From Desulfosudis oleivorans (GTDB taxonomy: Bacteria; Desulfobacterota; Desulfobacteria; Desulfobacterales; SURF-7), in the NCBI GenBank assembly GCA_020723325.1, contig DYJD01000008.1:176106-240105 (forward strand): 64,000 nucleotides of DNA, in the 5' to 3' direction. Shown here in pieces: positions 7,688-46,923 of this stretch. Within the stretch, counting starts at the first letter, position 1. Each line of letters begins with the position of its first letter. Made by a program: the position numbers and the translations under genes. The notes beneath the pieces are model-generated. The model saw only the letters and a list, made by a program, of their open reading frames with translations. It searched no databases and was not told the DNA's origin.

Positions 7688-7707
7688 GCGGTTGGAAGCC
7701 GCTCCCA
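7688..7707 (-). repeat. REP copy 1 (GCGGTTGGAAGCCGCTCCCA)
   Basis: One-base variant of the REP core, reverse orientation, in the 168-bp gap between the antitoxin gene and the PDZ-repeat protein. Flanking bases (TTGTTTCGG... and GGCTGAAACAA) repeat the longer context seen at other copies. Confidence 0.85.
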
Positions 7708-13501: not shown

Positions 13502-13505
13502 CACA

Positions 13506-14981
13506 TTGGGCATCGTTCAACTGATTTCCCCGCCACTGATTGCGTATCAAAATGATATCTTCGGCATGATCCCTTCCCCTCCAATTGGTTTGGCGTCCAT
13601 CGCCGCTTTTTCACGTAAGAATGGCTTTGATGTGGATCTCATTGATTCCTTTGGGGCTGATCCGTTTCGCACCAAAAAATACGGCAGACAATTTGTGATC
13701 ATCGGTTTGGATATCGAAGATATTTTGAGTAACATAAAATTAAATGCGGATGTCATCGGAATTTCGGTACATTCAGCCATGGTTGCCAAATTTTGCATGG
13801 ATCTGGGATTGAAAATAAAAGAGAATTACCACAAGCCTGTCGTAGTGGGAGGTCCACACATCTCATTGAATTATGAACAATTTATTAATGCAGGGATCGA
13901 TTATGCTGTCATTGGTGAAGGCGAGTTGCCGTTTATTCAATTGGTTACGGACCTACAGGGTGGGGGAAGTGGGAAAAATATTCCCGGTGTCGCGACCTTA
14001 GGGCAAAGCCGAATTCAAAACGGTGATGTTCTTGAAATGGATGATCTGCCGATGCCGGCTTGGGATCTGATTCCACTTAAGAATTACTGGAAGACTAAAA
14101 TCAATCATAGCCCATTTCAAGGTCGATTTATTCCAATGATCAGCTCCAGGGGATGTCCATTCAAATGTTCATTTTGCACTACTCCTCTTACAAGTCGCGG
14201 TCGCTGGCGGGCATATTCGGCTGATAGAGTATTAAAAGAAATTAAATTTTTGCATGATGTCCATGGCGTTGTTGATATTGCCATTCAAGATGATAATTTT
14301 AGTGCCAATCCCAAACGTACAAAAGAAATTTGTGAGCTAATAGTAAAAGAAGGGTTGAATCTTAGATTAAGTTTACCATCCGGAGTTCGATTGGAGACCT
14401 TGAGTGAAGATTTATTAAATGCAATGAGAAAAGCCGGACTAACGTATCTTTCGTTGTCTCCGGAATCCGGATCAAAAAGAATCAGACAGCTCATGCGGAA
14501 AACCTTGGATGAAAACAAATTTTATAGAATCCAAAAACATTGTAAATTGTTGAATATTAAAATAGGGATTTGTTTCATTATCGGCAATCCGGAGGAAAGA
14601 ATGGCCGACATTTTGCAAACCGCAAAAATGATAGCCAAGACCATTTATCTAGGAGCGGATGATATCAGTATTTTTATATTTTCGCCTTTACCAGGTGCTC
14701 CTTTAGCAAAAACATTTGAGAAAAAGTTTCCAAAAGATTTGTTGGGGTTATGTTGGACCCCAAAATGGAGGGAGGACTACAAAAAGTGGGCAGTAGTTCG
14801 ATATCTGCTTTATGCCGAATATGCTATTCTAAAAATTATTTTTCAGCCATTTTCTATATGGCAACATATCAAAAATGTAGTCAAGCGCGAATTTGAGACC
14901 AAAGGTGAAATGGGTATCGCGAGGTTGCTGGCCAATCGCTTTTCATCCGCAAAGGGTTCATGGCCGGTAAAACCCAGATGA
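13506..14981 (+). CDS. B12-binding radical SAM protein
   Basis: About 491 residues from a TTG start preceded by AAGGAGG; the open frame extends upstream into the previous gene but without a ribosome site. Residues about 10-150 form a cobalamin-binding Rossmann domain (SPPIGLASIAAF, DVIGISVHSAM, PVVVGGPHISL, YAVIGEGE). The radical SAM cluster motif CxxxCxxC is in SSRGCPFKCSFC. Members of this BchE/P-methylase class methylate unactivated carbons or rearrange substrates using methylcobalamin. In a glycan context it may C-methylate a sugar or alter a lipid carrier. The cobalamin genes cobQ and cbiB are in the same window but far away. Confidence 0.88.
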   Translation: MGIVQLISPPLIAYQNDIFGMIPSPPIGLASIAAFSRKNGFDVDLIDSFGADPFRTKKYGRQFVIIGLDIEDILSNIKLNADVIGISVHSAMVAKFCMDLGLKIKENYHKPVVVGGPHISLNYEQFINAGIDYAVIGEGELPFIQLVTDLQGGGSGKNIPGVATLGQSRIQNGDVLEMDDLPMPAWDLIPLKNYWKTKINHSPFQGRFIPMISSRGCPFKCSFCTTPLTSRGRWRAYSADRVLKEIKFLHDVHGVVDIAIQDDNFSANPKRTKEICELIVKEGLNLRLSLPSGVRLETLSEDLLNAMRKAGLTYLSLSPESGSKRIRQLMRKTLDENKFYRIQKHCKLLNIKIGICFIIGNPEERMADILQTAKMIAKTIYLGADDISIFIFSPLPGAPLAKTFEKKFPKDLLGLCWTPKWREDYKKWAVVRYLLYAEYAILKIIFQPFSIWQHIKNVVKREFETKGEMGIARLLANRFSSAKGSWPVKPR

Positions 14982-15039
14982 GCGATTTTTATTGGCAAAT
15001 ATCAAACAGCTTATATCTTGAAGAATTGAGGCATTCAAA

Positions 15040-16404
15040 ATGAATATTACTATAGTCGGAGCTGGAATTGCAGGTTTGACATTGGGTTATTTGCTTTCCA
15101 AAAAGGGGATACCGGTAGTATTGATTGAAAAAGAGTCGGAAGTCGGCGGCTTGGCGAGAAGTTTTCATTATAACAATTGGAGCATTGATATCGGGCCGCA
15201 TCGATTTCATACCGATGATCCAGTAGTAAAAGCATTCCTGGATGAAATTATGTCCGGGCATTTAATGGAAATCGATAGAGACAGTAAGGTTTATTTTTGC
15301 GATACGCATTATAAATGGCCCCTGACTTTTCACGACGTTTTACAGCTTCCTTACAGTCTTATGGCAAAATCAATGTGGGATTTGATATTTCGACCCACAT
15401 CGGAGGGGGGGACCTTTGAATCATATGTCATGAGCAAATACGGCAAGACATTAACGGATTCCTTTTTTAGAGAATATACTTTAAAATTTCTAAAAATGGA
15501 TTTGAAGCAATGCCATAGGGACTGGGCGGAGACGGGGATCAACAGGGCTACTATCGATAAGGAAGTGCGGACTTCTAGTATCGTTGATCTACTATTTGGG
15601 GTTTTAAAACCAAAAAAGATACACACAAAGTTTTTATATCCCAAAAAGGGAACAATTGATTTATTTCCAAAAATTCTATCCCAAAAAATTGAGCGATTAG
15701 GCGGAAAAGTACTCACCAATAAGAATATTGAAAAAATAAATAGGGCGAAAGATGTTATCAAATCTGTTGTATTTTCAGATGGGCAGGAAATACAATCAGA
15801 TTTCCTTTTTTGGTCCGGTTCGCCAAGTACGTTGGAAATATTACTGGGTTTTGAGAAATCGCAATTGGGATTTTGTTCAACAGCCATGTGCAATTTGCTT
15901 GTGGAAGGCCCGCCGCCTGTTCCTTCACAATGGGAATATTTTGGTTCGCGCGAGATTATTTTTTGTCGACTTTCCACAAACACCTCCTTCAATCCGGCAT
16001 TGGCCCCATCTGGGTATTATGGGCTATGCGCTGAGATTGTATGTTATAATAATGATTATGTGTGGAATAATGCCGATAAACTATTAAATATTATTGTTCA
16101 AAATTTAATCAAAACAAAAGTGGTCCGCAACTTTAACTCAATCGTCGATGTCCATTTTGAAAAGATTGATCAAACATATCCTATATATAGAATTGATTAT
16201 CTTGAAAAGTTAGGTCAATATTATAACAAATTGCAGCAAGTAAAGAATGTTTTGGCATTTGGCAGAACAGGCGGGTTTTGGTACAACAATATGGATCATT
16301 CCATTCGCTTATCCATTGATTTAGCGAACTCTATTATTGATTCGGATATGTTGTCAACCCCTGAAAGGTTGCCTTATAAGGGGGTATTTCGCGGGGATTT
16401 TTAA
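15040..16404 (+). CDS. FAD-dependent amine-oxidase-like/UDP-galactopyranose mutase-like flavoprotein
   Basis: 454 residues. The N-terminus has the dinucleotide motif GAGIAGL (residues 7-13) followed by an acidic strand end (LIEKESEVGGLARS), and GPHRFHTDDP resembles the substrate loop of Glf and of protoporphyrinogen-oxidase-like proteins. A C-terminal FAD segment reads GRTGGFWYNNMDHSIRLSIDLA. Such proteins in glycan clusters are often annotated as PPO-like or Glf-like, with the true reaction unknown. It follows the radical SAM gene by 58 bp and is co-directional. Confidence 0.8.
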   Translation: MNITIVGAGIAGLTLGYLLSKKGIPVVLIEKESEVGGLARSFHYNNWSIDIGPHRFHTDDPVVKAFLDEIMSGHLMEIDRDSKVYFCDTHYKWPLTFHDVLQLPYSLMAKSMWDLIFRPTSEGGTFESYVMSKYGKTLTDSFFREYTLKFLKMDLKQCHRDWAETGINRATIDKEVRTSSIVDLLFGVLKPKKIHTKFLYPKKGTIDLFPKILSQKIERLGGKVLTNKNIEKINRAKDVIKSVVFSDGQEIQSDFLFWSGSPSTLEILLGFEKSQLGFCSTAMCNLLVEGPPPVPSQWEYFGSREIIFCRLSTNTSFNPALAPSGYYGLCAEIVCYNNDYVWNNADKLLNIIVQNLIKTKVVRNFNSIVDVHFEKIDQTYPIYRIDYLEKLGQYYNKLQQVKNVLAFGRTGGFWYNNMDHSIRLSIDLANSIIDSDMLSTPERLPYKGVFRGDF

Positions 16405-16426
16405 ATGGCCTGCATGGATATGCCAT

Positions 16427-17056
16427 ATGAATAGATATGAAGAATACAATAAATTGGATGCTGAGAATCTGACTCTTTTAGGAAGGTTTATTTATCCATG
16501 GGCGATTAGATATCGGAATCAATTGGCCTTAAAACATATACCCCAAGAGAGCAATGATCTGTTGGATTTTGGTGGCGGCTATGGGTATCTTATCAGACAC
16601 GCTCACTGTCTAAAAGCTGTCAGTATAGATGAAAAAGCCATTTTGACAATAAACAGAGATCATCAAGGTAATGTAGTTTCGGAAGAATCTGCAGAAGGTT
16701 TCTTGTTCGTTGATAAACTGCCGTTTGATGACGAGTGCTTTGATTGTATTACGGCTGTAGCAATACTTGAACATATTAAGGATATAAAGAAAATTTTACA
16801 AGAATTTAACCGGATATTGAGAAACGGCGGTACGCTGATCATTACAACGCCGACCGGCATCGTTAACCGCATCTTGCCTTTCTTGGATAAAGGCTCCAGC
16901 CAGTTGCGGGGAAAAAAAGTCACCGAAGAACATGAGCATTGTCTTGGAATAGAACAAATGCAGCAATATGTGCAAAATATTTTTCGATTGAAATTATACA
17001 AGCGGTTTCAATTCGGTATCAACCAGCTATTCATCTATGAAAAAAAAGAAAGATGA
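16427..17056 (+). CDS. Class I SAM-dependent methyltransferase
   Basis: About 209 residues from ATG 16427 (MNRYEEYNKLDAEN); an in-frame upstream ATG at 16337 lies inside the flavoprotein gene and would add a translated overlap of no family resemblance. Motif I is LLDFGGGYGYLIR, then CFDCITAVAILEHIKDIKKILQEFNRILRNGGTLIITTPTGI. The C-terminal region has GLEQMQQ-type sequence (EHCLGIEQMQQYV). It is the last gene of the plus-strand glycan block and ends 7 bp from the convergent membrane protein gene. Confidence 0.85.
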   Translation: MNRYEEYNKLDAENLTLLGRFIYPWAIRYRNQLALKHIPQESNDLLDFGGGYGYLIRHAHCLKAVSIDEKAILTINRDHQGNVVSEESAEGFLFVDKLPFDDECFDCITAVAILEHIKDIKKILQEFNRILRNGGTLIITTPTGIVNRILPFLDKGSSQLRGKKVTEEHEHCLGIEQMQQYVQNIFRLKLYKRFQFGINQLFIYEKKER

Positions 17057-17063
17057 TCCTGTT

Positions 17064-18965
17064 TTATTCCGACATGTAATATTGATAATATTTTTCAGGA
17101 ACCCGAAACATAAGAATTGTGTCGAATAATTTGTGAACCTTTTTAAAATCTTCCTTTTGCGATAAATCGTAATTTACTCCTTTAAATCGAAATGGTTCAA
17201 AATGGAATTTGGACTTGAACCCGGTAACGGTTATATTAAGATCCGGCCGCCGAAATAAAATTGGGAAAATGCCCGTATCGCTTCCCGCAATTACTAAAAC
17301 CGAAGATCCAGGAGGAATTTCATGAATAAAATGCTTCCATGATCCTTCTGAGCACAATTTCGGGTAATAGGCACGGTCTCTATTGTTAATGAGGTTGTAT
17401 AGAAGAGGAAATTGAGTGACATTATCATAAATTGCAAGATAAAAAAGGTTTAATGACGATACCAAAATCGCAATGCCGGCGAGGCCTTTAAATATTCGGC
17501 TGTGCTTTTTAGAAATCTGATCAAATATTGATCCCATGCAAAACAGACCGATAATAAATGTAACTATATAATAACGACCATTCCAGGGTGTCCAGGGCAC
17601 TTTAATACAGACGAATACAATTGAGAAGAGGGCTGTTATCGATATAATTCTTAAGAATCCTGGTCCACGGAAGAGTACAAACACAATTGATAATAAGATT
17701 GGAATTCCAAGTAATCCATACCATCCATCCACATCCGTCGGATTTAGAGAGCCGCAGACATCGACTATTAAATGCTGATCAGGAAATAAGATGCCGATAT
17801 TTTTATGCTCTCCTAAAATCAAATCGTGAATTTTATTGAGTGCACTCCCTCCAAATTCTTTTGGTAAATCCATAGATTGTAGAGAAAATCGTAGGAGGTT
17901 GGCGGCGATTTTCAGGGCATTATCATTGCGGGGAAAACTGGATATGATTTTTTCAGGACCCAATAGATTTCCGTATATTGAATAATTATGATTCAAGAAA
18001 ATAGCTAATATAATGGCACTGGCAAATGGGAGAACTAAAAGTGGAATATATTTCTGATTGATAGTTTTGATGACCGATAGAAAATGTTTTATCCCGAATT
18101 TATATAACAGATATAATCCGAAAAAAAATAGGAAGGGAAAAGCGAAAGCAGCAAAAGTCGATTTTATGGTTAAACCAAATAATAATGTGGTGCAAAGAAT
18201 ATATAAATGGATAACACATTTTGATTGCAGATAATTGATCGCCGAAATGAAAATGATAATTGCAGCGGCACCCAGAATTAGATCATTTTTCGTAGATGAG
18301 GCAGAAATAACTAGTAAAGGAAGGGCGGCGCCAATAAAGGAGATCGCTTTGCTTAATTGCACCTTCGAAAATAATTTATCAGTCAATGTATAAATTGACG
18401 AAATAATGGTGAGATAACTAATGAAACCAAATGTTGCAAGACCAAAATCAGTATAAAATCTCAAATATAAGAAATACAGAATATCATAACCGATCTGCAT
18501 GGTATCCAGGCGATAGTCGTTAAAATTTTCCAAATACAAGCGACCTTCTGCTTGCATCAGTACAATCCTGGTCAAATGGTAGGTCAGGCTGTCCCAGGTT
18601 GTTGGAGGCAGTAGGAACCCTTTAACGAAGAGACAAAGAAAAACAAAAGAGAGTACACATGTATAGATAGGATTATTTTTTACAAACAGTTTGAATATTC
18701 GGCATGAGTCAATGATGATCTGAAAATTTTTATATAAAAGCCACATTGAAACCGATACGGCAAAAATGTCAAAAAGAAAAAAGAAACTATGAATACCGAG
18801 CATGAAAAAAAAGTGAATACAAACTGAAAGTATTGATAATGCCGAAATTGTTGAATAAGAAAAAGCTTCCGGAACTGATAAGACATATCTGCGTATAATA
18901 GAGAATATCGCCAGTATTATAAGAGCAATTTCAAATGTTACAATGAGAGAGAAAAACAAATGCAT
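17064..18965 (-). CDS. Membrane glycosyltransferase, GT-C (GT39/ArnT-like)
   Basis: 633-residue integral membrane protein with about 12 hydrophobic spans. After the third span, TTWDSLTYHLTRIVLMQAEGRLYLENFNDYRLDTM is the large periplasmic loop with the acidic catalytic position (WDSLTYH) used by GT-C enzymes acting on polyprenyl-phosphate sugars. A C-terminal soluble part of about 130 residues (SVLVIAGSDTGIFPILFRRPDLNITV...) closes the protein. It is convergent with the methyltransferase gene and the last recognisable gene of the glycan region. Family is likely; donor and acceptor are unknown. Confidence 0.7.
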   Translation of the reverse strand: MHLFFSLIVTFEIALIILAIFSIIRRYVLSVPEAFSYSTISALSILSVCIHFFFMLGIHSFFFLFDIFAVSVSMWLLYKNFQIIIDSCRIFKLFVKNNPIYTCVLSFVFLCLFVKGFLLPPTTWDSLTYHLTRIVLMQAEGRLYLENFNDYRLDTMQIGYDILYFLYLRFYTDFGLATFGFISYLTIISSIYTLTDKLFSKVQLSKAISFIGAALPLLVISASSTKNDLILGAAAIIIFISAINYLQSKCVIHLYILCTTLLFGLTIKSTFAAFAFPFLFFFGLYLLYKFGIKHFLSVIKTINQKYIPLLVLPFASAIILAIFLNHNYSIYGNLLGPEKIISSFPRNDNALKIAANLLRFSLQSMDLPKEFGGSALNKIHDLILGEHKNIGILFPDQHLIVDVCGSLNPTDVDGWYGLLGIPILLSIVFVLFRGPGFLRIISITALFSIVFVCIKVPWTPWNGRYYIVTFIIGLFCMGSIFDQISKKHSRIFKGLAGIAILVSSLNLFYLAIYDNVTQFPLLYNLINNRDRAYYPKLCSEGSWKHFIHEIPPGSSVLVIAGSDTGIFPILFRRPDLNITVTGFKSKFHFEPFRFKGVNYDLSQKEDFKKVHKLFDTILMFRVPEKYYQYYMSE

Positions 18966-31238: not shown

Positions 31239-31868
31239 ATGAAGCAAAAAAAAGGCAGACATCCCGGAACCGAATCAAGACGCAAGACCATCATCAACGC
31301 GGCCCTGGCCTGCTTTGCCGAAATCGGTTTTTCCGAGACCAGCATGGAAGACATTCGGCGCAAATCCGGCGCCAGCACCGGCAGTATCTATCATCATTTT
31401 AAAAGCAAGGAGCAGTTGGCGGCGGAAGTATACCTTGCCGGCATTTGCAATTATCAGGAGGGCCTTATTCAGGCCTTGGAAGGGCAAACCGACATGGAGG
31501 CCGGCGTGCGCGCATTGGTGGCTTTTCATTTGCAATGGATCATGGAAAATGTGGAATGGGCCCGTTATTTGTTTCAGAAACGGCATTCCGTGTTCATGGC
31601 CGCGGCGGAAGCGAAAATTCACTCCATGAATAAAGAATTCAGCCGCAAGCTGCACCAATGGTTCATGCAGGGCGTCAATTCCGGAGCCGTCAGAATGTTG
31701 CCCGCCGATATTGTTGCCGCCCTTATCATCGGGCCTTGCATGGAGTTCACGCGCCAATACCTGGCCGGCCATAACCGCACGGACAGGGAGCAAGCCGCAA
31801 CGTTGATGGGCGATGCTGTTTGGCGCGCCCTGTCTCAAGATTGCAAGGGCAGCCGGCGGAATGTATAA
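31239..31868 (+). CDS. TetR/AcrR-family transcription regulator
   Basis: 209 residues. The helix-turn-helix is in INAALACFAEIGFSETSMEDIRRKSGASTGSIYHHFKSKEQL (about 17-60); the remainder is a helical ligand/dimer domain ending GDAVWRALSQD. The effector cannot be predicted. No ribosome site is visible before ATG 31239, and a promoter -10 lies only 7 bases upstream. Its 3' end overlaps the convergent MFS-aminopropyltransferase-like gene by 34 bp. Confidence 0.9.
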   Translation: MKQKKGRHPGTESRRKTIINAALACFAEIGFSETSMEDIRRKSGASTGSIYHHFKSKEQLAAEVYLAGICNYQEGLIQALEGQTDMEAGVRALVAFHLQWIMENVEWARYLFQKRHSVFMAAAEAKIHSMNKEFSRKLHQWFMQGVNSGAVRMLPADIVAALIIGPCMEFTRQYLAGHNRTDREQAATLMGDAVWRALSQDCKGSRRNV

Positions 31869-34060
31869 TAGGTTTTATTTTTCAAATCCAACAATCTGCG
31901 CAGCAGGTAGTATTCGTTAAAAGGCCGATCATCGGTGATACGCATATCCGGTGAAGGCGAAAGAATCTTTTCAAGCGCAGGTTTGGGATTGATGACAGGG
32001 GTGAGAGCGGTTTCCAGATTTGGCAGCGCAGACCATTCCATAAAATCCGCTTTTGCCTTTTCCGGCATTTTGGCAATCAGCTCCGCGATCGTCAATGGCG
32101 GCAGCATTTCATTGGATGCCAGAAAATGAGCGCCCCAACCCTCGACAGAGGGAAGCGCACGCACATATGGGAAGGAGTTCAACAGGGACCTGGCCGCGGC
32201 CTGAAAGGTCTGCAATTCACAAGTGGGGATCCATTGCTGCAGGATTCCGCCCTTTTTAAGTCGTTTTTTGACAAGCTCATAAAATTCATCGGAGTACAGC
32301 AAGCTTGAACCGGCGGTTTCAATGGGCGGCGGCGGATCAATGGTGATCACGTCGTAGGTTTCCGATGTCCGGGCCAGAAAACGCCGGCCGTCATCGATGA
32401 CGACTTTTCCTTTGGGATTATTGAGCAGTTCTTGAGCGTCTGTGTAATAGAATCCAAAAGCCGCCTTCACACTGGGAACAAGTTCAACCGCCGTAGTATT
32501 GATATCCCAGCTCATCATGGAACGAAAAGTGGTTCCCATTCCAAAGCAGATCACCAGGGCCGATTCTGGTTTGTTTTGGCAAAAAGCCAGCGGTAAATGG
32601 GCCATGGCCTTGGTGATTTCCGTCAGTTTGGTAATCCCGATGCCATTCACCAGGAGTTGTTTGGCAATGCCGGTACCGGCGGATACCACAGTGGCGGTAT
32701 GGTCTCTTCTGACTTCAACGCCTTTCTGGGCGGCATACTTCTCTTCAAAGCTCAAATGAACGGTCCAGGTGCGGAAAAAAACAAACAACGCCAAGGCTCC
32801 CATCAACATGGTCCACTCCTGCTTAAACAGGTTTTCCTTGTAATATAAAATGAGAAAAATCAAGAACGGAGCAGACAATAGCAAAAAGGAGGTTTTGACG
32901 CCGTAAAACGGTAGTAAAATATACGAAACAAATAAGGGGCCGAGGATGCAGCCGATGATGTTCAATGCATAGGCTTTGCCGCCCTTGCAGGGATCTCCGG
33001 CCGAATACCGGTCGATGAGTTGCGGGGTCAGATAACCCAAGGCGGCGCACACCGGAAAAATGCTGGATAATACGGTGAGCACGCCGGGTTCCAGGCGCGG
33101 ATCATTAACGGTGACCGGCAGCAAAGCAAAAACGGCGATGCTGGACATGAGTTTATCCTCTGACAGCACTTTTTTTGCCGCAAAATGTTTCCGGTAGAGA
33201 TAAGAACCGATCCAGGTGCCGAACAGATATACCGCCAGCAGCGCGGCAAAAGAATATGTGGCAGTTTTCAAGATGGGCGTAAAGGCCCTGACCCAGACAA
33301 CCTCCATGCTCAGGGAGATGAACCCGGTCATGAAAAGCACTGTGCAGATGCGCCTTTGGTCGGCTGTGCTTAAAAACGTTTGGGAGAGCGGATTGTCAAG
33401 GGGACCGGGTATGTCCTGAATCACCGGGGTGCGGTAAAATCGACTGATAGCGATGGAAATCAGGGCAATGCCGAAGTTAAGCGTGGCGGCGATCAATAAG
33501 GTCTGTTTAAAACCGAGCAGTTCGATCAACACCACGGCTGTGATCAACGTCCCCAACATGGCGCCCACCACATTGGCAAAATATAAATAGCTGAAACTGG
33601 ATGCGGCGTTTGGATGCGCTTTTTTAATAAAAGCCATCATGAAGGGGAAAGTAAACCCCATAAAAATACACCACGGCAGGATGGAAACCGATATCATCAG
33701 GGCGGAATGAAACAAATAGCCGGTGGAATTCATTTCACCGTAATTCAAGAGTACATTATTCCACATGGAAAAAAGGGTTGGAACGGCAAAGGCGCCCACG
33801 CCCAGAAAGGCTTCCGTTCCGGCATATAACAGCAAGGGGGCGCGCAGATTGGTTGCTTGTAGCTTGTTGATCCATTTGCCGCCGGCCCAGGAGCCGATGG
33901 AAAGTCCCAACATGAATACGGAAATGACCACGGACAATACCGGTGTAATCACGCCGAAGGAGGCATATGCCATTCGGACCCATACCACTTGATAGAGCAA
34001 ACCGCAAAATCCTGAAAATAGAAACAACATGAACAGAATCCGATAATGGCCGACGGGCAT
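31835..34060 (-). CDS. Membrane MFS-like protein fused to a spermidine-synthase-like domain
   Basis: About 741 residues from ATG 34060 (AAGGAGA ribosome site; GTG at 34066 possible). The N-terminal ~480 residues hold about a dozen membrane spans (LFLFSGFCGLLYQVVWVRMAYASFG is the family opening). The C-terminal ~250 residues have the SAM-like nucleotide fold of aminopropyltransferases: ALVICFGMGTTFRS, VELVPSVKAAF, VVIDDGRRFLA, YDVITIDPPPPIETAGSSLLYSDEFYELVKKRL. The polyamine-synthase motif D-[ST]-[ST]-D-P reads D-P-P-P-P here, so the second Asp that serves as catalytic base is lost. It is thus unlikely to make spermidine; substrate unknown. Confidence 0.85.
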   Translation of the reverse strand: MPVGHYRILFMLFLFSGFCGLLYQVVWVRMAYASFGVITPVLSVVISVFMLGLSIGSWAGGKWINKLQATNLRAPLLLYAGTEAFLGVGAFAVPTLFSMWNNVLLNYGEMNSTGYLFHSALMISVSILPWCIFMGFTFPFMMAFIKKAHPNAASSFSYLYFANVVGAMLGTLITAVVLIELLGFKQTLLIAATLNFGIALISIAISRFYRTPVIQDIPGPLDNPLSQTFLSTADQRRICTVLFMTGFISLSMEVVWVRAFTPILKTATYSFAALLAVYLFGTWIGSYLYRKHFAAKKVLSEDKLMSSIAVFALLPVTVNDPRLEPGVLTVLSSIFPVCAALGYLTPQLIDRYSAGDPCKGGKAYALNIIGCILGPLFVSYILLPFYGVKTSFLLLSAPFLIFLILYYKENLFKQEWTMLMGALALFVFFRTWTVHLSFEEKYAAQKGVEVRRDHTATVVSAGTGIAKQLLVNGIGITKLTEITKAMAHLPLAFCQNKPESALVICFGMGTTFRSMMSWDINTTAVELVPSVKAAFGFYYTDAQELLNNPKGKVVIDDGRRFLARTSETYDVITIDPPPPIETAGSSLLYSDEFYELVKKRLKKGGILQQWIPTCELQTFQAAARSLLNSFPYVRALPSVEGWGAHFLASNEMLPPLTIAELIAKMPEKAKADFMEWSALPNLETALTPVINPKPALEKILSPSPDMRITDDRPFNEYYLLRRLLDLKNKTYYTFRRLPLQS

Positions 34061-34282
34061 GGTCACTCTCCTTGCAAGATAAAATCAAAAAAGACAGTTT
34101 TTACAATCTTTTCAGTTAAATTATTTGATCCGAAACCGACCCTATTGTTTTTTGAATAGAATTTCAAGCAATAGTTCATCCAGGAAGTAAAATGGAACAA
34201 TTCTGTTGACAGGACAAATTTTTCAAGGGAAAAAGTAGAGTAGTCTCTGAGCCTCGATGATTGTTTCGGCCAGCCTCCATAA

Positions 34283-39911: not shown

Positions 39912-41237
39912 CTATTCCACAGCCCACTCAAGCACCACTTCCGCTGGAAGATAGGCGATACGCGGCAGGGGTTTGATAAAATTCTGACGCAGGCTGTAAG
40001 TGTAAGCGCCCTGGGTGGGGATCAGCAGGAGATCGTCGGGTCGGATAGCGGAACCATGGTAGGAGAAGCCCCACACATCATGGGGTGTGCACAGGGAACC
40101 GAGGACATGGCATGGGTTTTCCTTAATACCTGGCTGGGTCAGGTTGATGATGGGGAAGTAGTCGTGTTCAAAGCGTTCCCAGCCCACGGCATTGGTGCCG
40201 GCATCGGTGATGACAAGATCCGGGGCCTTGACATCCACCACGGTCATCAATAGATGCATGGCTTCATGGCAGATCCAACGGCCCGGTTCGCAGTAGAAGC
40301 GGCAGTTCAGATCCTTTGGGAATTCGCTTTTAATGGTCCGGGCGATTGCCTGGGCAAAAACCTCGATGGGAGTGCTTTCCAGGCAATGGCGTGCCATGGA
40401 ATCAATGGTTTCCGGGGCAAGCAAGTCCATCAATTGACCGTTGGGTGTTCCCTTGGCCCGCAGCCATTCGCCCTGCACCGGCCAATAGCCGCCGCCCATG
40501 TCGATAAAGCGGATGCACCGCTGCAAATCCAAAGGGAGTTCGCAAAGCTTTTTTCCCAACTGTTTAAGAAAATCCGTGTGAGCCCCAGGGGTAAGGTTCC
40601 AACTGGTATGGAATTGCAGCCCGCATAGGTCGATAAACGAGGATTTTCGGGCCTGGGAAAAGAATTCATGGAGGGATTCAAGGGGAATGCCGAACTTGCG
40701 CCAGAGGCCGTTGGGATTGGTGGTCAGGCGCACGCCGGCCTGAATCTTTTCCTTGCGCTTGCCGGCCAATTGATCCAATCGGGCCAGTTCGCCGAAACTA
40801 TCCAGTAAAACCGTGACCCGCTCGGCATGGTCAAGGGCCGCGGACAGTTCCGCATCGGTTTTGCCCGGGCCGCTGAAGATGATCCGTTGCGCTCCAACTG
40901 TGATGGCCTGTTGCAGTTCAAGGCCGCTGGAAACATCCAGGCCGAAATCCGCCTCCACCAGGATGCGGGCAACATCCGGCATGTTGTTGCTCTTCATGGC
41001 ATAGAAAATGTCGACATTCCCGATGGCTTGGCTAAAAGCCCGGCGAAACAGGACGGCTTTGGATCTGAGGCGTTTTTCATCCAAGGCATAGAGCGGCGAA
41101 CCGTGTCGCCGGGCCAAATCAAGGAAGATATCTTTATGCCTCAAACAGGAATTAATGAAAATCCCCAGGCGCTCTTCATCCATTTTTGGAGGGGTAGAAG
41201 ACAATAGCCGTTCAGCTTTAGATAGTAATTCCTGCAT
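39912..41237 (-). CDS. PLP-dependent decarboxylase, Y4yA-like (alanine-racemase fold)
   Basis: 441 residues of the fold-III (ornithine/diaminopimelate) decarboxylases. PLP lysine in VDIFYAMKSNNMPDV; GLQFHTSW for the phosphate-side His; FIDMGGGYWP; EPGRW; active-site Cys in SLCTPHDVWG; QGAYTYSLRQNF near the end. The substrate could be a diamine precursor amino acid or a peptidyl carrier-linked residue. It lies in the same direction as three metabolic genes upstream at 42084-44707 but is cut off from them by a RAYT unit. Confidence 0.87.
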   Translation of the reverse strand: MQELLSKAERLLSSTPPKMDEERLGIFINSCLRHKDIFLDLARRHGSPLYALDEKRLRSKAVLFRRAFSQAIGNVDIFYAMKSNNMPDVARILVEADFGLDVSSGLELQQAITVGAQRIIFSGPGKTDAELSAALDHAERVTVLLDSFGELARLDQLAGKRKEKIQAGVRLTTNPNGLWRKFGIPLESLHEFFSQARKSSFIDLCGLQFHTSWNLTPGAHTDFLKQLGKKLCELPLDLQRCIRFIDMGGGYWPVQGEWLRAKGTPNGQLMDLLAPETIDSMARHCLESTPIEVFAQAIARTIKSEFPKDLNCRFYCEPGRWICHEAMHLLMTVVDVKAPDLVITDAGTNAVGWERFEHDYFPIINLTQPGIKENPCHVLGSLCTPHDVWGFSYHGSAIRPDDLLLIPTQGAYTYSLRQNFIKPLPRIAYLPAEVVLEWAVE

Positions 41238-41282
41238 ATATCAGCATCCTTAAAGGTTTTTATTTTTTACCACTCGCTTCGC

Positions 41283-41398
41283 ACTACACGAAGGACACAT
41301 GGAAAACTTTTTTCACCACGAAGTACACGAAGGGCACGAAGAAAAAACTTAAGCTCAGCCGGCGTAGCCGGGAAAATTTCGTGTCCTTCGTGTACTTG
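41283..41398. repeat. CACGAAG-type inverted repeat
   Basis: CGAAGTACACGAAGGGCACG (41320-41339) is inverted by CGTGTCCTTCGTGTACTT (41380-41397). A partial copy (ACTACACGAAGGACACA) precedes it. Such ACACGAAGG words are widespread degenerate intergenic repeats in delta-proteobacteria. It is in the gap before the PLP-decarboxylase gene. Confidence 0.65.
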
Positions 41399-41488
41399 TT
41401 TATAAAACGAGTTGAAGTTTGTCCAGCTTCTTTCAAAGGCAAATGATTCTTTTTTCCTGAATTGTCATGTGAGAGCCGTTTTTTTTTG

Positions 41489-42052
41489 TGGGAGCGGCTT
41501 CCAGCCGCGATTTCCCGGCAACCCTCATCTGAAAGGCCGGAATGATATGACACCATACCCCATCAAAGGCAGTTCCCGCTTGCGGAAAAACCGGAAATCC
41601 CTTGCCGGGCATTATTATCTTTTGACTGCCGCCACCCATGAACGCCAACCGTTCTTTCAAGACCATCTGGCGGCTGAAATCGCTCTGGAAAGTCTGCAAT
41701 GGCTCCATGGCAAGGGGAGCATGGAATTGACCATGGCGGTGATCATGCCCGATCATGTTCATCTGGTGGCGCGGATGCTGGGTGATGATCTGGGGTTGGT
41801 GATGCATCGATTTAAAAGTTACACGGCAAATGAAGTCAATCGGATAATGGGTAGACAGGGCGCCTTTTGGCAGCCCCAGTATCATGATCATGCCCTTCGT
41901 GCGGACGAGGATTTAATGGAAGTGGTGCTGTATTGCCTGAACAACCCGGTTAGAAAAGGGCTTGTGAAGGATTTTCATGAATACCGGCATTGGTATTGCT
42001 GCTGGGATGTATAGGGCCTGAAGGATACAATCGCGGCTGGAAGCCGCTCCCA
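41489..42052 (+). mobile_element. RAYT transposase flanked by REPs in opposite orientation
   Basis: A REP at 41489-41511 (GGGAGCGGCTTCCAGCCGC) and its reverse complement at 42030-42052 border a 468-bp transposase gene. The arrangement (head-to-head REPs around a Y1 transposase) is that of a BIME-like unit with its transposase. It interrupts the spacing between the ATP-grasp gene and the PLP decarboxylase. Confidence 0.8.
41547..42014 (+). CDS. REP-associated tyrosine transposase (RAYT)
   Basis: 155 residues from ATG 41547; the open frame begins upstream at 41412 but that part is REP sequence read as protein (the SGFQPR string). The core matches RAYT/IS200-like Y1 enzymes: GHYYLLTAATHERQPFF, the metal motif VIMPDHVHLVARM (HVH), then YTANEVNRIMGRQGAFWQPQYHDHALR. 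The nucleophile tyrosine is likely the Tyr in FWQPQYHDH or in the C-terminal helix LMEVVLYCLNNP. These proteins move or maintain REP sequences, cutting single-stranded hairpins preceded by GGAG/GTAG. Confidence 0.82.
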   Translation: MTPYPIKGSSRLRKNRKSLAGHYYLLTAATHERQPFFQDHLAAEIALESLQWLHGKGSMELTMAVIMPDHVHLVARMLGDDLGLVMHRFKSYTANEVNRIMGRQGAFWQPQYHDHALRADEDLMEVVLYCLNNPVRKGLVKDFHEYRHWYCCWDV

Positions 42053-42083
42053 CTTTGGAAAAATTGAGGAAAAGATTTTTTAG

Positions 42084-43361
42084 TCAGGAAGCAATATCCA
42101 CATGGACGCGCCGGATCAAGCGGCGCACCTGGTCGGCGATGGGTCTTGCGTTTTCCGGCTTGAAAACGGCATAGCCCAGCAACCAGGAAGTGTAGTCCTC
42201 GGGCGGAAGTTTGATCTGATCTCCCGGTTGCCGCAGCCAGACCATGGAGCGAATCCGATCTTCAACTCCGTTCAGTTGGGGCCGGATGGCCTGCAAGCGG
42301 CCGGGCTTTTCAGCATGAAACCTCACGCCCACGAGATGTTCCCAGTGTTCCATGGGGGGAATCCGAATCCAACGGCCTTCGGCATAATCTATGGCAACCC
42401 CGATCATATCCAGGCCGCAGCTTTTTTCAATCAGGGGCGGCAGGCAATCCCCGCCGGGGCGGGGCGATATCTCTATAAAATAAGGCCGGCCGTTGCGGAC
42501 GATGAAATCAAGCATGCACAAGCCGCTGTTCAATCCCACGGCTTTGGCGGCTGCGGATAAATACCCCATAAAGACCGAAGTATTGATGATCATGGGAATC
42601 CGCACCGGGATTTCATAGGCCTGGGTTGTGCCCACAGGACCGCTGTCCGGGAAATATTTTTTGGCAATGCGCAATATGCGCGCTTCTTCACCTTCCAGAA
42701 GAATGTCACAACTGTATTCCTGTCCGTCAATGAATTCCTCACAGAGAATTGTGAGTGGATGTTCTTGATCGTCACAGCGGTACATCCTGGTCAGACTTCT
42801 TGACTGTAAACCGGCCAATATAACGGCATAGGCTTTTTCCGCTTCTGCGGCAGTATGGCAGTGAAAGATCAGTTCGCTGCCGCTGCCGGACAAGGGCTTC
42901 AGAATAATGCCGGCGGCGGTTTCCTTCATAAAAATTAAAATATCATCAAGCTGGTTGACTTCGCAAATCCGTGGGCAAGGCACGCCGAATTTTTTCCAGA
43001 GTTTTTTGCTGATATATTTATTCCGGCAATGCCGAACAGCTTCCTTGGAAGCAAAGGGCAAGGCCCAGTTTCGGGCCACTACCGCCGCCATGCTTAGGGA
43101 TTCGCAATCAAAACAAGTCACACCGCTCAGGGAGATTTTTTGATGCAGGAGAAAGGCGCTGAGTTTTTCCATGACTTCCGCTTCCTCCCGCAAGGGGCAG
43201 ACAAGTTCATCCACAGCAGGAACAAAGGCCGGCCCGCATGGGGGGCGGACATCCGGGTCCGTGATAAAAACGGCCCGCTTCGGCATTTTTTTGCGGATAT
43301 GGTCGATATAGTCCGGGGTGGTTCCCACCACCAGGACACGTTCATGGTTGTTACGCTTCAA
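42084..43361 (-). CDS. ATP-grasp ligase
   Basis: 425 residues. The ATP-grasp domain is clear in the middle: RNKYISKKLWKKFGVPCPR then IILKPLSGSGSELIFHCHTAAEAEKAY, ILCEEFIDGQEYSCDILLEG, and metal-binding GLCMLDFIVRNGRPYFIEISPRPGGD. The N-terminal Rossmann part (RVLVVGTTPDYIDHIRKKMP) and the C-terminal helical cap complete the fold. The family joins a carboxylate to an amine or thiol with ATP. Its 5' end overlaps the GNAT gene by 11 bp. In this cluster it may couple a decarboxylation product to an amino acid (inference). Confidence 0.88.
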   Translation of the reverse strand: MKRNNHERVLVVGTTPDYIDHIRKKMPKRAVFITDPDVRPPCGPAFVPAVDELVCPLREEAEVMEKLSAFLLHQKISLSGVTCFDCESLSMAAVVARNWALPFASKEAVRHCRNKYISKKLWKKFGVPCPRICEVNQLDDILIFMKETAAGIILKPLSGSGSELIFHCHTAAEAEKAYAVILAGLQSRSLTRMYRCDDQEHPLTILCEEFIDGQEYSCDILLEGEEARILRIAKKYFPDSGPVGTTQAYEIPVRIPMIINTSVFMGYLSAAAKAVGLNSGLCMLDFIVRNGRPYFIEISPRPGGDCLPPLIEKSCGLDMIGVAIDYAEGRWIRIPPMEHWEHLVGVRFHAEKPGRLQAIRPQLNGVEDRIRSMVWLRQPGDQIKLPPEDYTSWLLGYAVFKPENARPIADQVRRLIRRVHVDIAS

Positions 43362-44304
43362 CAGCCTCAGCCCTGATTCTGGTTTTCAACAAATAGGATT
43401 CGTCCGCCTTGCATGCAATATAAAGCGGACGCGCTTCAAGATGAAAGCGCGGCTTCCAACCGAAGTCGCCGCACAAAAAATCGATTTCCTGGATCTTGTT
43501 TTGACAACCCCAATCCAAATGCAACAAATTAATGGTTTTGGCAATACCCGTGAAAGCCATGTCGGTGGCGCCCCCCAGCACGGTGTATTGGTTGCGGTAG
43601 ACGGCGCCCACATCCACCGCGGCCGTCTGCCCGCCCACCCGCACGGTGACGACGCGCAGAATCCCCATTTCCCGCAGCCGGTCCAACATGGCGTTGAACC
43701 CGTTCCGGAAACGGGAATCATGGAAATAGGATTTGGGGCCGAAATTCATCAGGTTCTGCTCAAACATCCACGGGATATCATCAAATTGGTTTTCCTGATA
43801 CCGACAGCCCAAATGGTCGAACCGGCCGGCCTCGCGCTGGAGTTGTTTTTTGGATTTGCCGGAGAATTCGGCCCAATAAGCATCCATATGGCTGTTGTAC
43901 TTTAGTGGATGAAACAGATAACCGATTTCATCCATTTGCGCGTCCGCCGGACATTCTTCCGGTAAAAGATAGCGCAGGCGCGTATTGTCCGGGGCCGCCG
44001 CCCACAGCAATTGTCTGATCTCCTCTGATTCAGCCGGAATCCGGTTTTGCTCCAGCCAGGTCTTGCTGTTCCAGGTTTCACCCGGGAAGCAGCCGTAATA
44101 TCCCTCTTCTTCAATCCAACTAAGGGGCAGAAGGCCCACCTGTCGGCCAAAGGATTCAGCCACCACAAAATGGATGGGGCGCTGGAAATGCCGATGAAAG
44201 GCAAGGCGGATATCCCAGCGGTCGAACAGGCAGTTTTCCGGCCAGAGTTCGCGCCAGATTTGCTCGCATTCCTTCAAATCAGTATAAACACGGATTTTCG
44301 GCAT
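43351..44304 (-). CDS. GNAT/FemAB-like acyl- or aminoacyltransferase
   Basis: 317 residues. It has the peptidoglycan-bridge-type GNAT layout: RPIHFVVAESFGRQVGLLPLSWIEEEGYYGCFPGETW in the N-terminal half and SGKSKKQLQREAGRFDHLGC, RVVTVRVGGQTAAVDVGAVYRNQYTVLGGATDMAF in the C-terminal half. Members transfer acyl groups from CoA or aminoacyl-tRNA. It overlaps the ATP-grasp gene by 11 bp and starts 4 bp after the SpeD-like gene, so all three are co-translated. Confidence 0.75.
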   Translation of the reverse strand: MPKIRVYTDLKECEQIWRELWPENCLFDRWDIRLAFHRHFQRPIHFVVAESFGRQVGLLPLSWIEEEGYYGCFPGETWNSKTWLEQNRIPAESEEIRQLLWAAAPDNTRLRYLLPEECPADAQMDEIGYLFHPLKYNSHMDAYWAEFSGKSKKQLQREAGRFDHLGCRYQENQFDDIPWMFEQNLMNFGPKSYFHDSRFRNGFNAMLDRLREMGILRVVTVRVGGQTAAVDVGAVYRNQYTVLGGATDMAFTGIAKTINLLHLDWGCQNKIQEIDFLCGDFGWKPRFHLEARPLYIACKADESYLLKTRIRAEAVEA

Positions 44305-44308
44305 TTTT

Positions 44309-44707
44309 TTACTGCCTCAGGGTCACATGCAACACACTGCGTTTGCCCTTAAAATACTTCTCGGCAAAGTCCTTGACCACCTCCGGAACATAGGGTTTGC
44401 AACTGAAAACGTCCAGGTAAACGGTATTGGTCAGATTGGCAAAATGGGCGGAGATCAAGGAGGTTTCGATCAACTGGACCATGGAAAAACCGGCGACCTT
44501 TTCATCCTCACCGAAATGCACCACCATGGTTTCGCCGAAGCGTTTCATTTCTATCAATTCGCACAATTCAACGACAAAACGACGGATGGCTTCCGCGTCC
44601 CGAATCAGGCCCGGATCGCATTCATAGATGTCGATACTCGAAGAAATACCCCAGACGTTTAATGCAATGGCCGTTTCTCGTATGGCGCACGTGCTTTCCA
44701 ATCTCAT
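44309..44707 (-). CDS. SpeD-like pyruvoyl-dependent decarboxylase homologue
   Basis: 132 residues, the size of class 1b AdoMet decarboxylase. The key region is QLIETSLISAHFANLTNTVYLDVFSC (residues 78-103). Ser83, His88 and Cys103 have the same spacing as Ser63, His68 and Cys83 of Thermotoga SpeD (5 and 20 residues), which are the cleavage serine, the processing base and the proton donor. The Glu before the serine is replaced by Thr82. So self-cleavage may occur but the substrate may differ: bacterial SpeD homologues are known that act as ornithine or arginine decarboxylases. It leads the four-gene operon; the other polyamine genes are absent. Confidence 0.75.
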   Translation of the reverse strand: MRLESTCAIRETAIALNVWGISSSIDIYECDPGLIRDAEAIRRFVVELCELIEMKRFGETMVVHFGEDEKVAGFSMVQLIETSLISAHFANLTNTVYLDVFSCKPYVPEVVKDFAEKYFKGKRSVLHVTLRQ

Positions 44708-44787: not shown

Positions 44788-44985
44788 TTAATCCAAGTCA
44801 CCTTTCCGCCGCTTCTCGCGACGGGCTTTCCTCCGCGTGCGTTCACGATCTAATTTCTCCTTTGCTTCATACCAGTCCATTTTTCCCGACCTTTGTTTGC
44901 GTCGAACATGCCGGTCGTCCTCATCTTCGAAAGCGGTTTCATCCTCGCCATCATCGGTTTGAAAACCAGGCTCTTCTTTATCCAT
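44788..44985 (-). CDS. Small highly charged protein
   Basis: 65 residues (ATG 44985; an in-frame TTG at 44994 is possible). Acidic first half (GEDETAFEDEDD), basic second half (MDWYEAKEKLDRERTRRKARREKRRK). The MDWYEAKEKLDRE-x-RKxRR motif suggests a small conserved protein, possibly RNA- or DNA-binding. GGAG lies 11 bases before the ATG. It precedes the SpeD-like operon in the same direction. Function unknown. Confidence 0.55.
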   Translation of the reverse strand: MDKEEPGFQTDDGEDETAFEDEDDRHVRRKQRSGKMDWYEAKEKLDRERTRRKARREKRRKGDLD

Positions 44986-45172
44986 GCTGCCCAAATCTCC
45001 TGATGTTCACAATTCTGCCTCCGGCCCTGTCCTTGGTTGAACCAAAGATGTTGCCAAGGATTGCCAGACTGTGAGCAAAAAATATGCCATGGGTCTTGAT
45101 TTTGCGAATTGTAGATTAATCATTTGATATTAAATGGTTGGATAGGGGAGTGGTAGCGGGTTGCCGGGTATG

Positions 45173-45495: not shown

Positions 45496-46923
45496 ATGCT
45501 GCTGCGTCTGGTGCTTGCCATAAAAAGCAAAAGCCTGGAAGCGTATCTCACCGAACGTTTTGCCCAGCCGGATGTGCGTGTGGAATCCGTGGGCCATTAC
45601 AGCAATCCCTTTCAGAAGGCGGTGAAAACCAACGGGGATATTTTTGTTTTGAACACCCGGCTCATGCCCAAACCGCCTGAATCCGCCATTGCCCTGATCA
45701 ATGACCTGCCGGAAAATCCCACCACCATCGTGCTGCACAACAGCGACTCGCCGGAAGAGCATGCCAATCTGGTGGCCTGGGGCGCTGACGTGGTCTTGTT
45801 CTCAGGACTGCCGCCCAAAACATTGGCCGAGGCCATTGAGACCACCCTGGAGTCCCGCCGGCAGTTGGTGCAGAAGTCCTGGCTGGAAAGACGGGTGGAC
45901 CCCCAGCCCAAATTGAATTCCTTTATTTCAGAATGCGCTCCCATGCAGATTTTTATGGATATGGTCAAGAAAGTCATACCCTGCAATGCGCCGGTTCTGA
46001 TTTGCGGTGAAACCGGGGTGGGCAAGGAACACCTTGCCAAGGTCATCCATGCCGAAGGCCCGCGCTCCACCGGACCCTTTACAGCCGTCAATTGCGCGGC
46101 CCTGCCGGAAGCCCTGCTGGAAAGCGAGCTTTTCGGACATGAAGAGGGGGCCTTCACCGGTGCGGTGCGCTCCCGCAGAGGGGCTTTTGAGCTGGCCCAC
46201 GGCGGCACAATTTTTCTGGATGAAATCGGGGATCTGCCCCTGCATTTGCAGGCCAAACTCCTACGGGTGCTGCAGGAATATGAAGTCCGGCCGGTGGGCA
46301 GTGAAAAAGCCACCTGGGTGGATATCCGGGTGATCGCCGCCACCAACCGCAATCTGGAAGAAGAAATCGAAAAAGGCCTGTTCCGCCGCGACCTGTACTA
46401 CCGGCTGGGCGTGATCACCCTTACGGTGCCCCCTTTGCGCACTCGGCGCGAAGACATACCCCGCATGGTGAATGAATATCTGGAACGTTTTTGCTTCAAG
46501 ATGAACCGGGAATGCAATCGCATTTCCAACGAGGCCCTGGAGAAATTGATGCAATATGAATGGCCAGGCAATGTGCGGGAGTTGATCAACGTGATCGAAC
46601 GGGCCATCATCTTGTGCCAGGGGGATACCATCACTGCCAAAGACCTGCCCCAGGGCATTCATGCCCAGAACGGCAGGAATGCCGCTTTTGATCCGCTTTC
46701 AGAACAATTTCAAGCAGAATGGCGCTATAAAACCCTGCCGGAGGTGCGGGAGGAGATGGTGAACCTGGTGGAACGATCCTATCTGAAAATGGTGCTTGCC
46801 GAAACCCAGGGCAATTTGAGCAAGACCGCCGACAAGGCCGGCATACATCCCCGTGGGCTTTATGAAAAAATGAAAAGATTCGGTTTAAGCAAAGAGGAAT
46901 TCAAGAATGGGCAGAAGAGATAG
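45496..46923 (+). CDS. Sigma-54-dependent transcription activator
   Basis: 475 residues; ribosome site AAGGAGG. The N-terminal ~130 residues are receiver-sized (LVLAIKSKSLEAYLTERF ... DIFVLNTRLMPKPPESA) but the Asp pocket is not the usual one, so it may be a pseudo-receiver. The AAA+ domain follows with GETGVGKE (Walker A), GAFTGA (sigma-54 contact loop), GGTIFLDEIGD (Walker B), VIAATNRNLEEEIEKGLFRRDLYYRL, EWPGNVRELIN. The end is a Fis-type HTH (GNLSKTADKAGIHPRGLYEKMKRFGL). It activates sigma-54 promoters; the target genes cannot be read, but the operators before it suggest autocontrol. Confidence 0.93.
   Translation: MLLRLVLAIKSKSLEAYLTERFAQPDVRVESVGHYSNPFQKAVKTNGDIFVLNTRLMPKPPESAIALINDLPENPTTIVLHNSDSPEEHANLVAWGADVVLFSGLPPKTLAEAIETTLESRRQLVQKSWLERRVDPQPKLNSFISECAPMQIFMDMVKKVIPCNAPVLICGETGVGKEHLAKVIHAEGPRSTGPFTAVNCAALPEALLESELFGHEEGAFTGAVRSRRGAFELAHGGTIFLDEIGDLPLHLQAKLLRVLQEYEVRPVGSEKATWVDIRVIAATNRNLEEEIEKGLFRRDLYYRLGVITLTVPPLRTRREDIPRMVNEYLERFCFKMNRECNRISNEALEKLMQYEWPGNVRELINVIERAIILCQGDTITAKDLPQGIHAQNGRNAAFDPLSEQFQAEWRYKTLPEVREEMVNLVERSYLKMVLAETQGNLSKTADKAGIHPRGLYEKMKRFGLSKEEFKNGQKR

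Follow-up and report, generated by a model that had tools for sequence, protein, structure and literature searches.

Do four neighbouring genes that code for two decarboxylases of different types, a ligase and a transferase make up one biosynthetic pathway, and if so, what might it produce? This question is raised by a 64,000-nucleotide stretch of Desulfosudis oleivorans DNA (contig DYJD01000008.1, positions 176,106 to 240,105; hereafter the window), on whose minus strand a SpeD-like pyruvoyl decarboxylase gene is followed by genes for a GNAT-fold transferase, an ATP-grasp ligase and a pyridoxal phosphate (PLP) decarboxylase, with a RAYT (REP-associated transposase) gene on the opposite strand between the last two. 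We suggest, with a probability of about one half, that the set, a conserved operon, would make putrescine, join amino-acid units to it by amide bonds and decarboxylate one of them, leading to an amide-linked, polyamine-like product. An earlier sequence-only reading of the window had already taken the four genes as a unit devoted to a small molecule; this idea is retained here, while the roles of the enzymes have been refined and a promoter, an activator gene and a small gene that had been missed have been added. That reading knew of no described pathway with this exact set, and our own searches, which covered open-licence papers, likewise found none, so that a description may be published elsewhere.

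Conservation of the gene set

When one genome per species was scanned, 309 places encoding a SpeD-like relative emerged, and the best 80 of these were used as related loci. According to the record titles, they belong to Desulfobacterota, Planctomycetota, Sumerlaeota, Krumholzibacteriota, Omnitrophota, Nitrospirota, Deferribacterota, Lentisphaerota and other groups. The majority are metagenome bins, and in some cases two loci stem from the same genome. Since it was the SpeD-like gene that led to these loci, the presence of its partner genes represents the test. In a first comparison the same four genes were adjacent in four relatives. Among the loci with 4 kb or more of contig to judge, the order SpeDC-GNAT-ATP-grasp-PLP (SpeDC being the type of SpeD-like enzyme discussed below) was complete in 62 out of 68; the other 12 loci end within 4 kb, and all three partners are still visible in four of them.

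An independent sample was represented by 395 genomes of the window's phylum, its own genome included. The GNAT family (E ≤1e-30) and the ATP-grasp family (E ≤1e-50) each occur in 14 of these genomes, and the 14 are identical; the PLP family (E ≤1e-60) occurs in 15, that is, the same 14 plus one with a piece at a contig end. A SpeDC scoring more than 180 bits is present in 18 genomes, corresponding to 13 of the 14 operon genomes and five without the operon. In 12 of the 14 the genes lie side by side on one contig (with the RAYT between them in the window), and in the remaining two they are split over contigs. The gene order in relatives and the co-occurrence rule out chance clustering. The four genes behave as one unit, and the outcome that the sequence-only reading had named as refuting it, a lack of neighbourhood in relatives, did not occur when looked for. 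Pairwise protein distances within 60 operons (59 loci and the window, with one copy of each gene) are also correlated among the four proteins (r 0.56–0.87, a level reached by none of 2000 permutations), the strongest of the six correlations being that between the ATP-grasp and PLP matrices (r 0.87); this adds little, since shared ancestry alone would also produce it. The complete set is harbored by strains such as Desulfogranum marinum DSM 2058, Desulfobacter vibrioformis DSM 8776 and Desulfatibacillum alkenivorans DSM 16219.

Two further neighbourhoods were observed during this comparison. The five lone SpeDC genes of the phylum (L111–L115) each lie near a gene judged by eye to be indolepyruvate-oxidoreductase-like or TrpB-like. 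In locus L089, genes for a RimK-type ATP-grasp protein, a GCS2 ligase, an N-formylglutamate amidohydrolase and a C39-like peptidase (13250–17389) adjoin an operon devoid of the family's own ATP-grasp gene; 5 of the 80 loci contain the C39-like gene.

The four enzymes and the proposed pathway

The first enzyme, a protein of 132 amino acids, falls far below the equivalog cut-off for S-adenosylmethionine (AdoMet) decarboxylase (TIGR03330; 28.1 vs 75.65 bits). The name SpeDC has been given to SpeD relatives that decarboxylate L-ornithine and in which Gln, Thr, Phe and Tyr are shared in the central region, together with the catalytic Ser, His and Cys (PMC10407285). In all of the 82 copies analyzed, the pyruvoyl-forming S83, the catalytic H88 and C103, and the diagnostic Q78, T82, F89 and Y97 are invariant, the placement of the residues relative to Fig. 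8 of that paper being our own reading. These copies are that of the window and 81 open reading frames from the 80 loci, including a few (e.g., L051 and L093) outside a complete operon. The protein, moreover, shares 64–66% identity with the C-terminal domain of SpeD-SpeDC-like fusions from two relatives (L018 and L019); for a Desulfotignum fusion of the same architecture and length, this domain has been proven to be the ornithine decarboxylase (PMC10407285). The residues and the NCBIfam cut-off together rule out an AdoMet decarboxylase, and the enzyme is predicted to act on L-ornithine, giving putrescine. Its assignment as a pyruvoyl decarboxylase stands, with L-ornithine as the predicted substrate, and the statement that no polyamine gene belongs to the set has to be corrected, the SpeD-like gene itself being a predicted one. 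Database records that give these genes a name have S-adenosylmethionine decarboxylase for the first and diaminopimelate decarboxylase or alanine racemase for the fourth; the naming of the first as a spermidine-pathway gene is likely wrong.

The window's genome (99.5% complete) contains no PF02675 gene besides the operon SpeDC and no OKR_DC decarboxylase. A 743-amino-acid protein encoded elsewhere in the window (31835–34066, minus strand), whose first part is hydrophobic by eye, carries a C-terminal spermidine-synthase domain (PF01564); it is without an obvious aminopropyl donor, because the sole PF02675 gene of the genome is the operon SpeDC. One further genome (G021) harbors the activator, GNAT, ATP-grasp and PLP genes, with a σ54 site recognised by eye before the GNAT gene, and lacks SpeDC. 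It has no OKR_DC enzyme; a PLP enzyme encoded elsewhere in it matches the Vibrio lysine/ornithine decarboxylase (2plj, E 1.1e-131) and has an acid beside the Cys. This single genome fits the idea that SpeDC only supplies putrescine, since the operon devoid of SpeDC is accompanied by a lysine/ornithine-type decarboxylase.

As for the second enzyme, the comparison of the GNAT family with the PDB sequences gave no match better than E 0.19. Its structural model (pLDDT 92) shows a tandem GNAT fold over the full length, the best Foldseek PDB matches being FemX (E 7.8e-12), Sbb17 (E 3.6e-11) and MprF/A-PGS; the TM-scores are only about 0.6, and the identity with FemX and Sbb17 is 9–14%. The sequence-only reading had spoken of an acyltransferase; the protein appears to be a FemX-like tandem transferase rather than an ordinary acetyltransferase. 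The profile of the third enzyme is closest to 4dim and to the L-amino acid ligase 3vot (E 3.4e-28 over profile positions 74–421, i.e., the ligase and C-terminal lobes), followed by BacD (5.3e-16). It resembles the L-amino-acid-ligase type and is predicted to form amides. Two other contexts were considered and set aside: an exosortase/PEP-CTERM link, as the weak NCBIfam matches (TIGR03019 and TIGR03099) lie far below their cut-offs, and anti-phage defence, as none of the 28 ATP-grasp family members, the only proteins submitted, matched any PADLOC family.

The best PDB profile matches of the fourth enzyme are, in order, the N-citrylornithine decarboxylase FigC (7kh2, 4.2e-40), SbnH, LysA (2p3e) and BtrK. 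In the aligned active-site loop the family reads LCTPHD, to be compared with LCTPKD in SbnH, LCTPED in BtrK, SCMQHD in FigC and ICETGD in LysA; the CTPxD motif is present in 61 of 64 copies, the other three not being caught by the search pattern. The residue next to the catalytic Cys is therefore not the acidic one typical of LysA, and it is an acidic residue in this position that binds the side-chain amine of the substrate (PMC7857480). In the same paper FigC, SbnH, AcsE, MccE and BtrK are grouped as decarboxylases not used for polyamines, FigC acting on N-citrylornithine in rhizoferrin biosynthesis and BtrK on a carrier-bound residue; SbnH Trp309, with which Trp353 of the window enzyme aligns, is placed at the acyl group. 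The score against the LysA model TIGR01048 is 147.9 bits (cut-off 297.9), which taken alone is a weak test, because the LysA-like proteins of G021 and of the window's own genome also fall below the cut-off (277.5 and 285.7 bits, respectively). With 82.4 bits against a cut-off of 500, the enzyme is not filed as the N-citrylornithine decarboxylase FslC either. The protein thus looks like a decarboxylase whose substrate is an acylated amino acid and not one of the free amino acids ornithine, lysine, arginine and diaminopimelate. A different locus of the window's genome (L105, contig C84) encodes a second decarboxylase, which is nearest to the N-citrylornithine decarboxylase (7kh2, E 1.4e-55) and possibly belongs to a separate acyl-amino-acid pathway.

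The idea that ligase and decarboxylase act consecutively is supported by gene fusions. A fused Desulfamplus protein, used as query, returned 56 proteins, and all of the 12 longest, which were scanned, carry both modules. Six have the ATP-grasp-PLP architecture (two of them, one being the query, from one genome bin); in the other six (P0127–P0132, 1231–1245 amino acids) an extra ATP-grasp module precedes the family ATP-grasp and the family PLP decarboxylase, the loop reading CDPHD in P0127 and P0130. Two operon copies, both with the fused ATP-grasp-PLP gene, are present in one Desulfamplus bin (L032 and L034).

On this basis, the following pathway can be depicted. SpeDC would decarboxylate L-ornithine to putrescine, as predicted from the published diagnostic residues; the ATP-grasp ligase would activate a carboxylate and form an amide; the PLP enzyme would then decarboxylate the conjugated amino acid, the models being BtrK on carrier-bound glutamate and SbnH/FigC on citryl amino acids; and the FemX-like enzyme would make a second amide from an aminoacyl-tRNA or an acyl-CoA. 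According to this logic, 4-aminobutyryl- or beta-alanyl-putrescine with further acylation would be the simplest products. The divergent σ54 activator or, in other lineages, a TetR-type regulator would switch expression.

Several observations weigh against this reconstruction. Six of the 68 loci are incomplete (L051, L054, L089, L093, L094 and L100), and 5 of the 18 strong SpeDC genes in the phylum occur without the operon. In three of five genomes queried (those of L089, L051 and L094) SpeDC is found without a family ATP-grasp at E 1e-20, which speaks also against the argument from the fusions; L089 is a chromosome record with SpeDC, GNAT and PLP present, and the operons of L051 and L094 are broken. 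The overall similarity of the PLP enzyme does not decide, because its model finds LysA as the top Foldseek match (FigC being third) and its profile finds FigC with no more than a modest lead over LysA (141 vs 127.6 bits); the active-site loop discriminates better. For the FemX-like enzyme, the Foldseek matches further down include CoA-dependent tandem GNATs. Lastly, sequence does not settle which carboxylate the ligase uses, what serves the FemX-like enzyme as donor or in which order the reactions run; for the product, the substrates and the activities, as for everything past gene identity, we infer from enzyme families.

Regulation, the small charged protein and the RAYT insertion

The positions attributed by the sequence-only reading to the four genes, all on the minus strand, were found to be exact, each gene being backed by a Pfam match (Table 1), and so were their spacings (a gap of 4 nt between the SpeD-like and GNAT genes, an overlap of 11 nt between the GNAT and ATP-grasp genes). 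An Rfam scan of the window at gathering thresholds matched no RNA element.

Table 1. Features of the operon and its surroundings (positions in the window)
Feature	Position	Strand	Basis
SpeDC-type pyruvoyl enzyme, predicted L-ornithine decarboxylase	44309-44707	-	PF02675 (AdoMet_dc) 78.9 bits, above cut-off
FemX-like tandem GNAT transferase	43351-44304	-	PF13480 (Acetyltransf_6) 57.2 bits, above cut-off
ATP-grasp carboxylate-amine ligase, L-amino-acid-ligase type (predicted)	42084-43361	-	ATP-grasp_4 52.5 bits, above cut-off
Alanine-racemase-fold PLP decarboxylase, CTPHD loop	39912-41237	-	Orn_Arg_deC_N 84.6 bits, above cut-off
RAYT, insertion	41412-42014	+	NCBIfam REP_Tyr_transpos 121.8 bits (cut-off 80)
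Divergent σ54 enhancer-binding protein, likely operon regulator	45496-46923	+	Sigma54_activat 231.6 bits plus HTH_8
Predicted σ54 (-24/-12) promoter TGGCATATTTTTTGCT	45074-45089	-	Score 20.5 of 20.5; 381 nt upstream of SpeDC
Small charged protein gene, 65 amino acids, first after promoter	44788-44985	-	Hidden Markov model (window copy is 1 of 8 seeds)

In 45 of the 80 loci a relative of the σ54 activator gene lies divergently, no more than 1.5 kb away from SpeDC. The score of the window's σ54 site was reached by none of 50 shuffles, and 43 of the 45 activator loci (all but L091 and L042) score at least 18.0 of 20.5, a value equalled in each case by no more than 2 of 50 shuffles. Eight of the 35 loci without a divergent activator also reach 18.0: four of them (L036, L058, L073 and L080) have little upstream contig, three (L056, L079 and L092) possess a lower-scoring activator relative, and one (L049) is without explanation. 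In 12 loci the place directly upstream is taken instead by a member of a single TetR-type family, of which Pfam confirmed one representative, and none of these 12 loci reaches 18.0. The activator retains the GAFTGA motif, and its receiver-like N-terminus is devoid of the conserved phospho-acceptor Asp (position 53 is Ser in 41 of the 45 proteins and Asn in that of the window); therefore, it may sense a ligand.

The small protein consists of an acidic stretch followed by a basic tail. A hidden Markov model built on eight leader open reading frames was compared with 12,788 small open reading frames from 79 loci (L039 being omitted as a duplicate) and a stretch of the window, and gave 20 matches below E 1e-3, that is, the eight seeds and 12 others, two of which are close copies of a seed; all 12 immediately precede SpeDC. 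Six pairs of relatives were compared, and in four of them synonymous changes exceed replacement changes in the frame of the gene only (e.g., 0.43 vs 0.05, 0.78 vs 0.09 and 0.69 vs 0.07); of the remaining two, one is ambiguous, another frame behaving likewise, and one has three changes in total, none synonymous. These codon changes point to in-frame purifying selection. A database search yielded 42 relatives, none with a Pfam domain or a functional name. Since most operons are without it, the small protein can be regarded as accessory.

The separation of the PLP gene by the RAYT unit, already recognised in the sequence-only reading, is exceptional among relatives. The distance between the ATP-grasp and PLP stop codons is 2172 nt in the window, compared with 1218–1510 nt in the 59 related loci in which it could be measured, and the RAYT is flanked by exact copies of a 20-nt REP sequence in opposite orientation (41488–41507, plus; 42034–42053, minus). 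The RAYT thus looks like an insertion that has entered between genes three and four, and a role in the pathway is ruled out, the 59 loci having no room for it. The REP sequence (GTGGGAGCGGCTTCCAGCCG), whose inverted copies flank the RAYT, is present eight times in the window (at 7689, 21948, 34312, 41488, 42034, 45429, 52498 and 60341), six copies being exact and two having two mismatches, and was never found in 100 shuffles.

Alternative explanations and known systems

The rival closest in weight to the pathway proposed above, although in our opinion unlikely, assigns to the set a reaction of the FigC kind. According to it, the ligase would acylate the side-chain amine of, for instance, ornithine, the PLP enzyme would decarboxylate the conjugate to an acyl-diamine, and the putrescine formed by SpeDC would serve as a second block, giving a bis-acylated diamine that possibly binds metals. 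FigC, which works on N-citrylornithine (PMC7857480), is the best PDB profile match and has a His at the same loop position. However, this would make SpeDC partly redundant, and 13 of the 14 operon genomes of the phylum have retained it. It also counts against this route that nine representatives of the recurrent neighbour families (those in at least four loci) were inspected by eye and none resembled a siderophore synthetase. A siderophore is nevertheless a possible product of the set. One ABC-transporter ATPase family is present at scattered positions in 6 of the 80 loci.

A bolder form of the preferred pathway, improbable in our view, would have the ligase add glutamate or aspartate to putrescine via the side chain and the PLP enzyme convert the added residue into an amine, giving a spermidine-like triamine without S-adenosylmethionine and, with it, a new class of amide polyamines. 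If this were true, the product would stand in for spermidine in bacteria like that of the window, whose only PF02675 gene is SpeDC, and the proteins with two ATP-grasp modules before the decarboxylase would make longer chains.

Less probable again is a plain supply of polyamines, in which a free basic amino acid would be the substrate both of SpeDC and of the PLP enzyme, the other two enzymes only acetylating or glutamylating amines for storage or detoxification. It would agree with the role of SpeDC as a putrescine enzyme in the published cases (PMC10407285) and with its being the only PF02675 gene in a genome devoid of OKR_DC decarboxylases; on the other hand, the PLP enzyme lacks the acidic residue by the catalytic Cys that binds a side-chain amine (PMC7857480), and 12 proteins combine it with the ligase in one chain. 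The least probable of these alternatives is protein or peptide modification, with the small charged protein as acceptor of a putrescine-derived group or as a carrier for its building: its gene comes first after the promoter in the window and in relatives, all 12 non-seed matches adjoin SpeDC, it shows signs of purifying selection, and BtrK acts on a carrier-bound residue (PMC7857480), but it occurs in only 20 of the 80 sequence sets (79 loci and a stretch of the window), and therefore the chemistry can likely run without it.

If the preferred pathway is correct, the pyruvoyl ornithine decarboxylases would gain a likely role beyond spermidine and homospermidine synthesis, and the operon would predict a new amine metabolite, to be sought directly in strains with the complete set. 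In the papers searched, this four-enzyme operon of Desulfobacterota, Planctomycetota, Nitrospirota, Omnitrophota and others (by record title), often under a σ54-type switch, has gone unnoticed. Predictions have been published for other operons of peptide synthesis, in which GNAT-fold ligases occur together with PLP enzymes (PMC2922099), in a paper whose main text contains neither "decarboxylase" nor "putrescine"; term searches of PMC11999265 and PMC4431377 gave nothing bearing on the four-gene set.

Among known systems, the window enzyme shares all diagnostic and catalytic residues with the published SpeDC proteins (PMC10407285), in whose clusters the partners of SpeDC are genes for spermidine, carboxyspermidine or homospermidine, whereas here it sits with GNAT, ATP-grasp and PLP decarboxylase genes; the main text of that paper contains neither "ATP-grasp" nor "GNAT". 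FigC/FslC and SbnH (PMC7857480) provide the best two PDB profile matches of the PLP enzyme and share the non-acidic residue next to the Cys; they differ in belonging to siderophore pathways, no siderophore synthetase having been recognised, among the nine families read by eye, beside operons of the window type. The aminoacyl-tRNA-dependent peptide-bond enzymes FemX and Sbb17 share the tandem GNAT fold over the whole length of the operon protein, from which they differ at a TM-score of only about 0.6 and 9–14% identity. Another parallel is offered by the butirosin pair BtrJ and BtrK, an ATP-grasp ligase and an alanine-racemase-fold decarboxylase that works with it, the latter sharing the FSGPGK and LCTPxD motifs with the PLP enzyme of the operon. 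The substrate of BtrK is carrier-bound, whereas the operon is without a known carrier protein; on the other hand, the operon adds a predicted putrescine-forming enzyme and a FemX-like transferase to the pair, and in some relatives the ligase and the decarboxylase are fused into a single protein.

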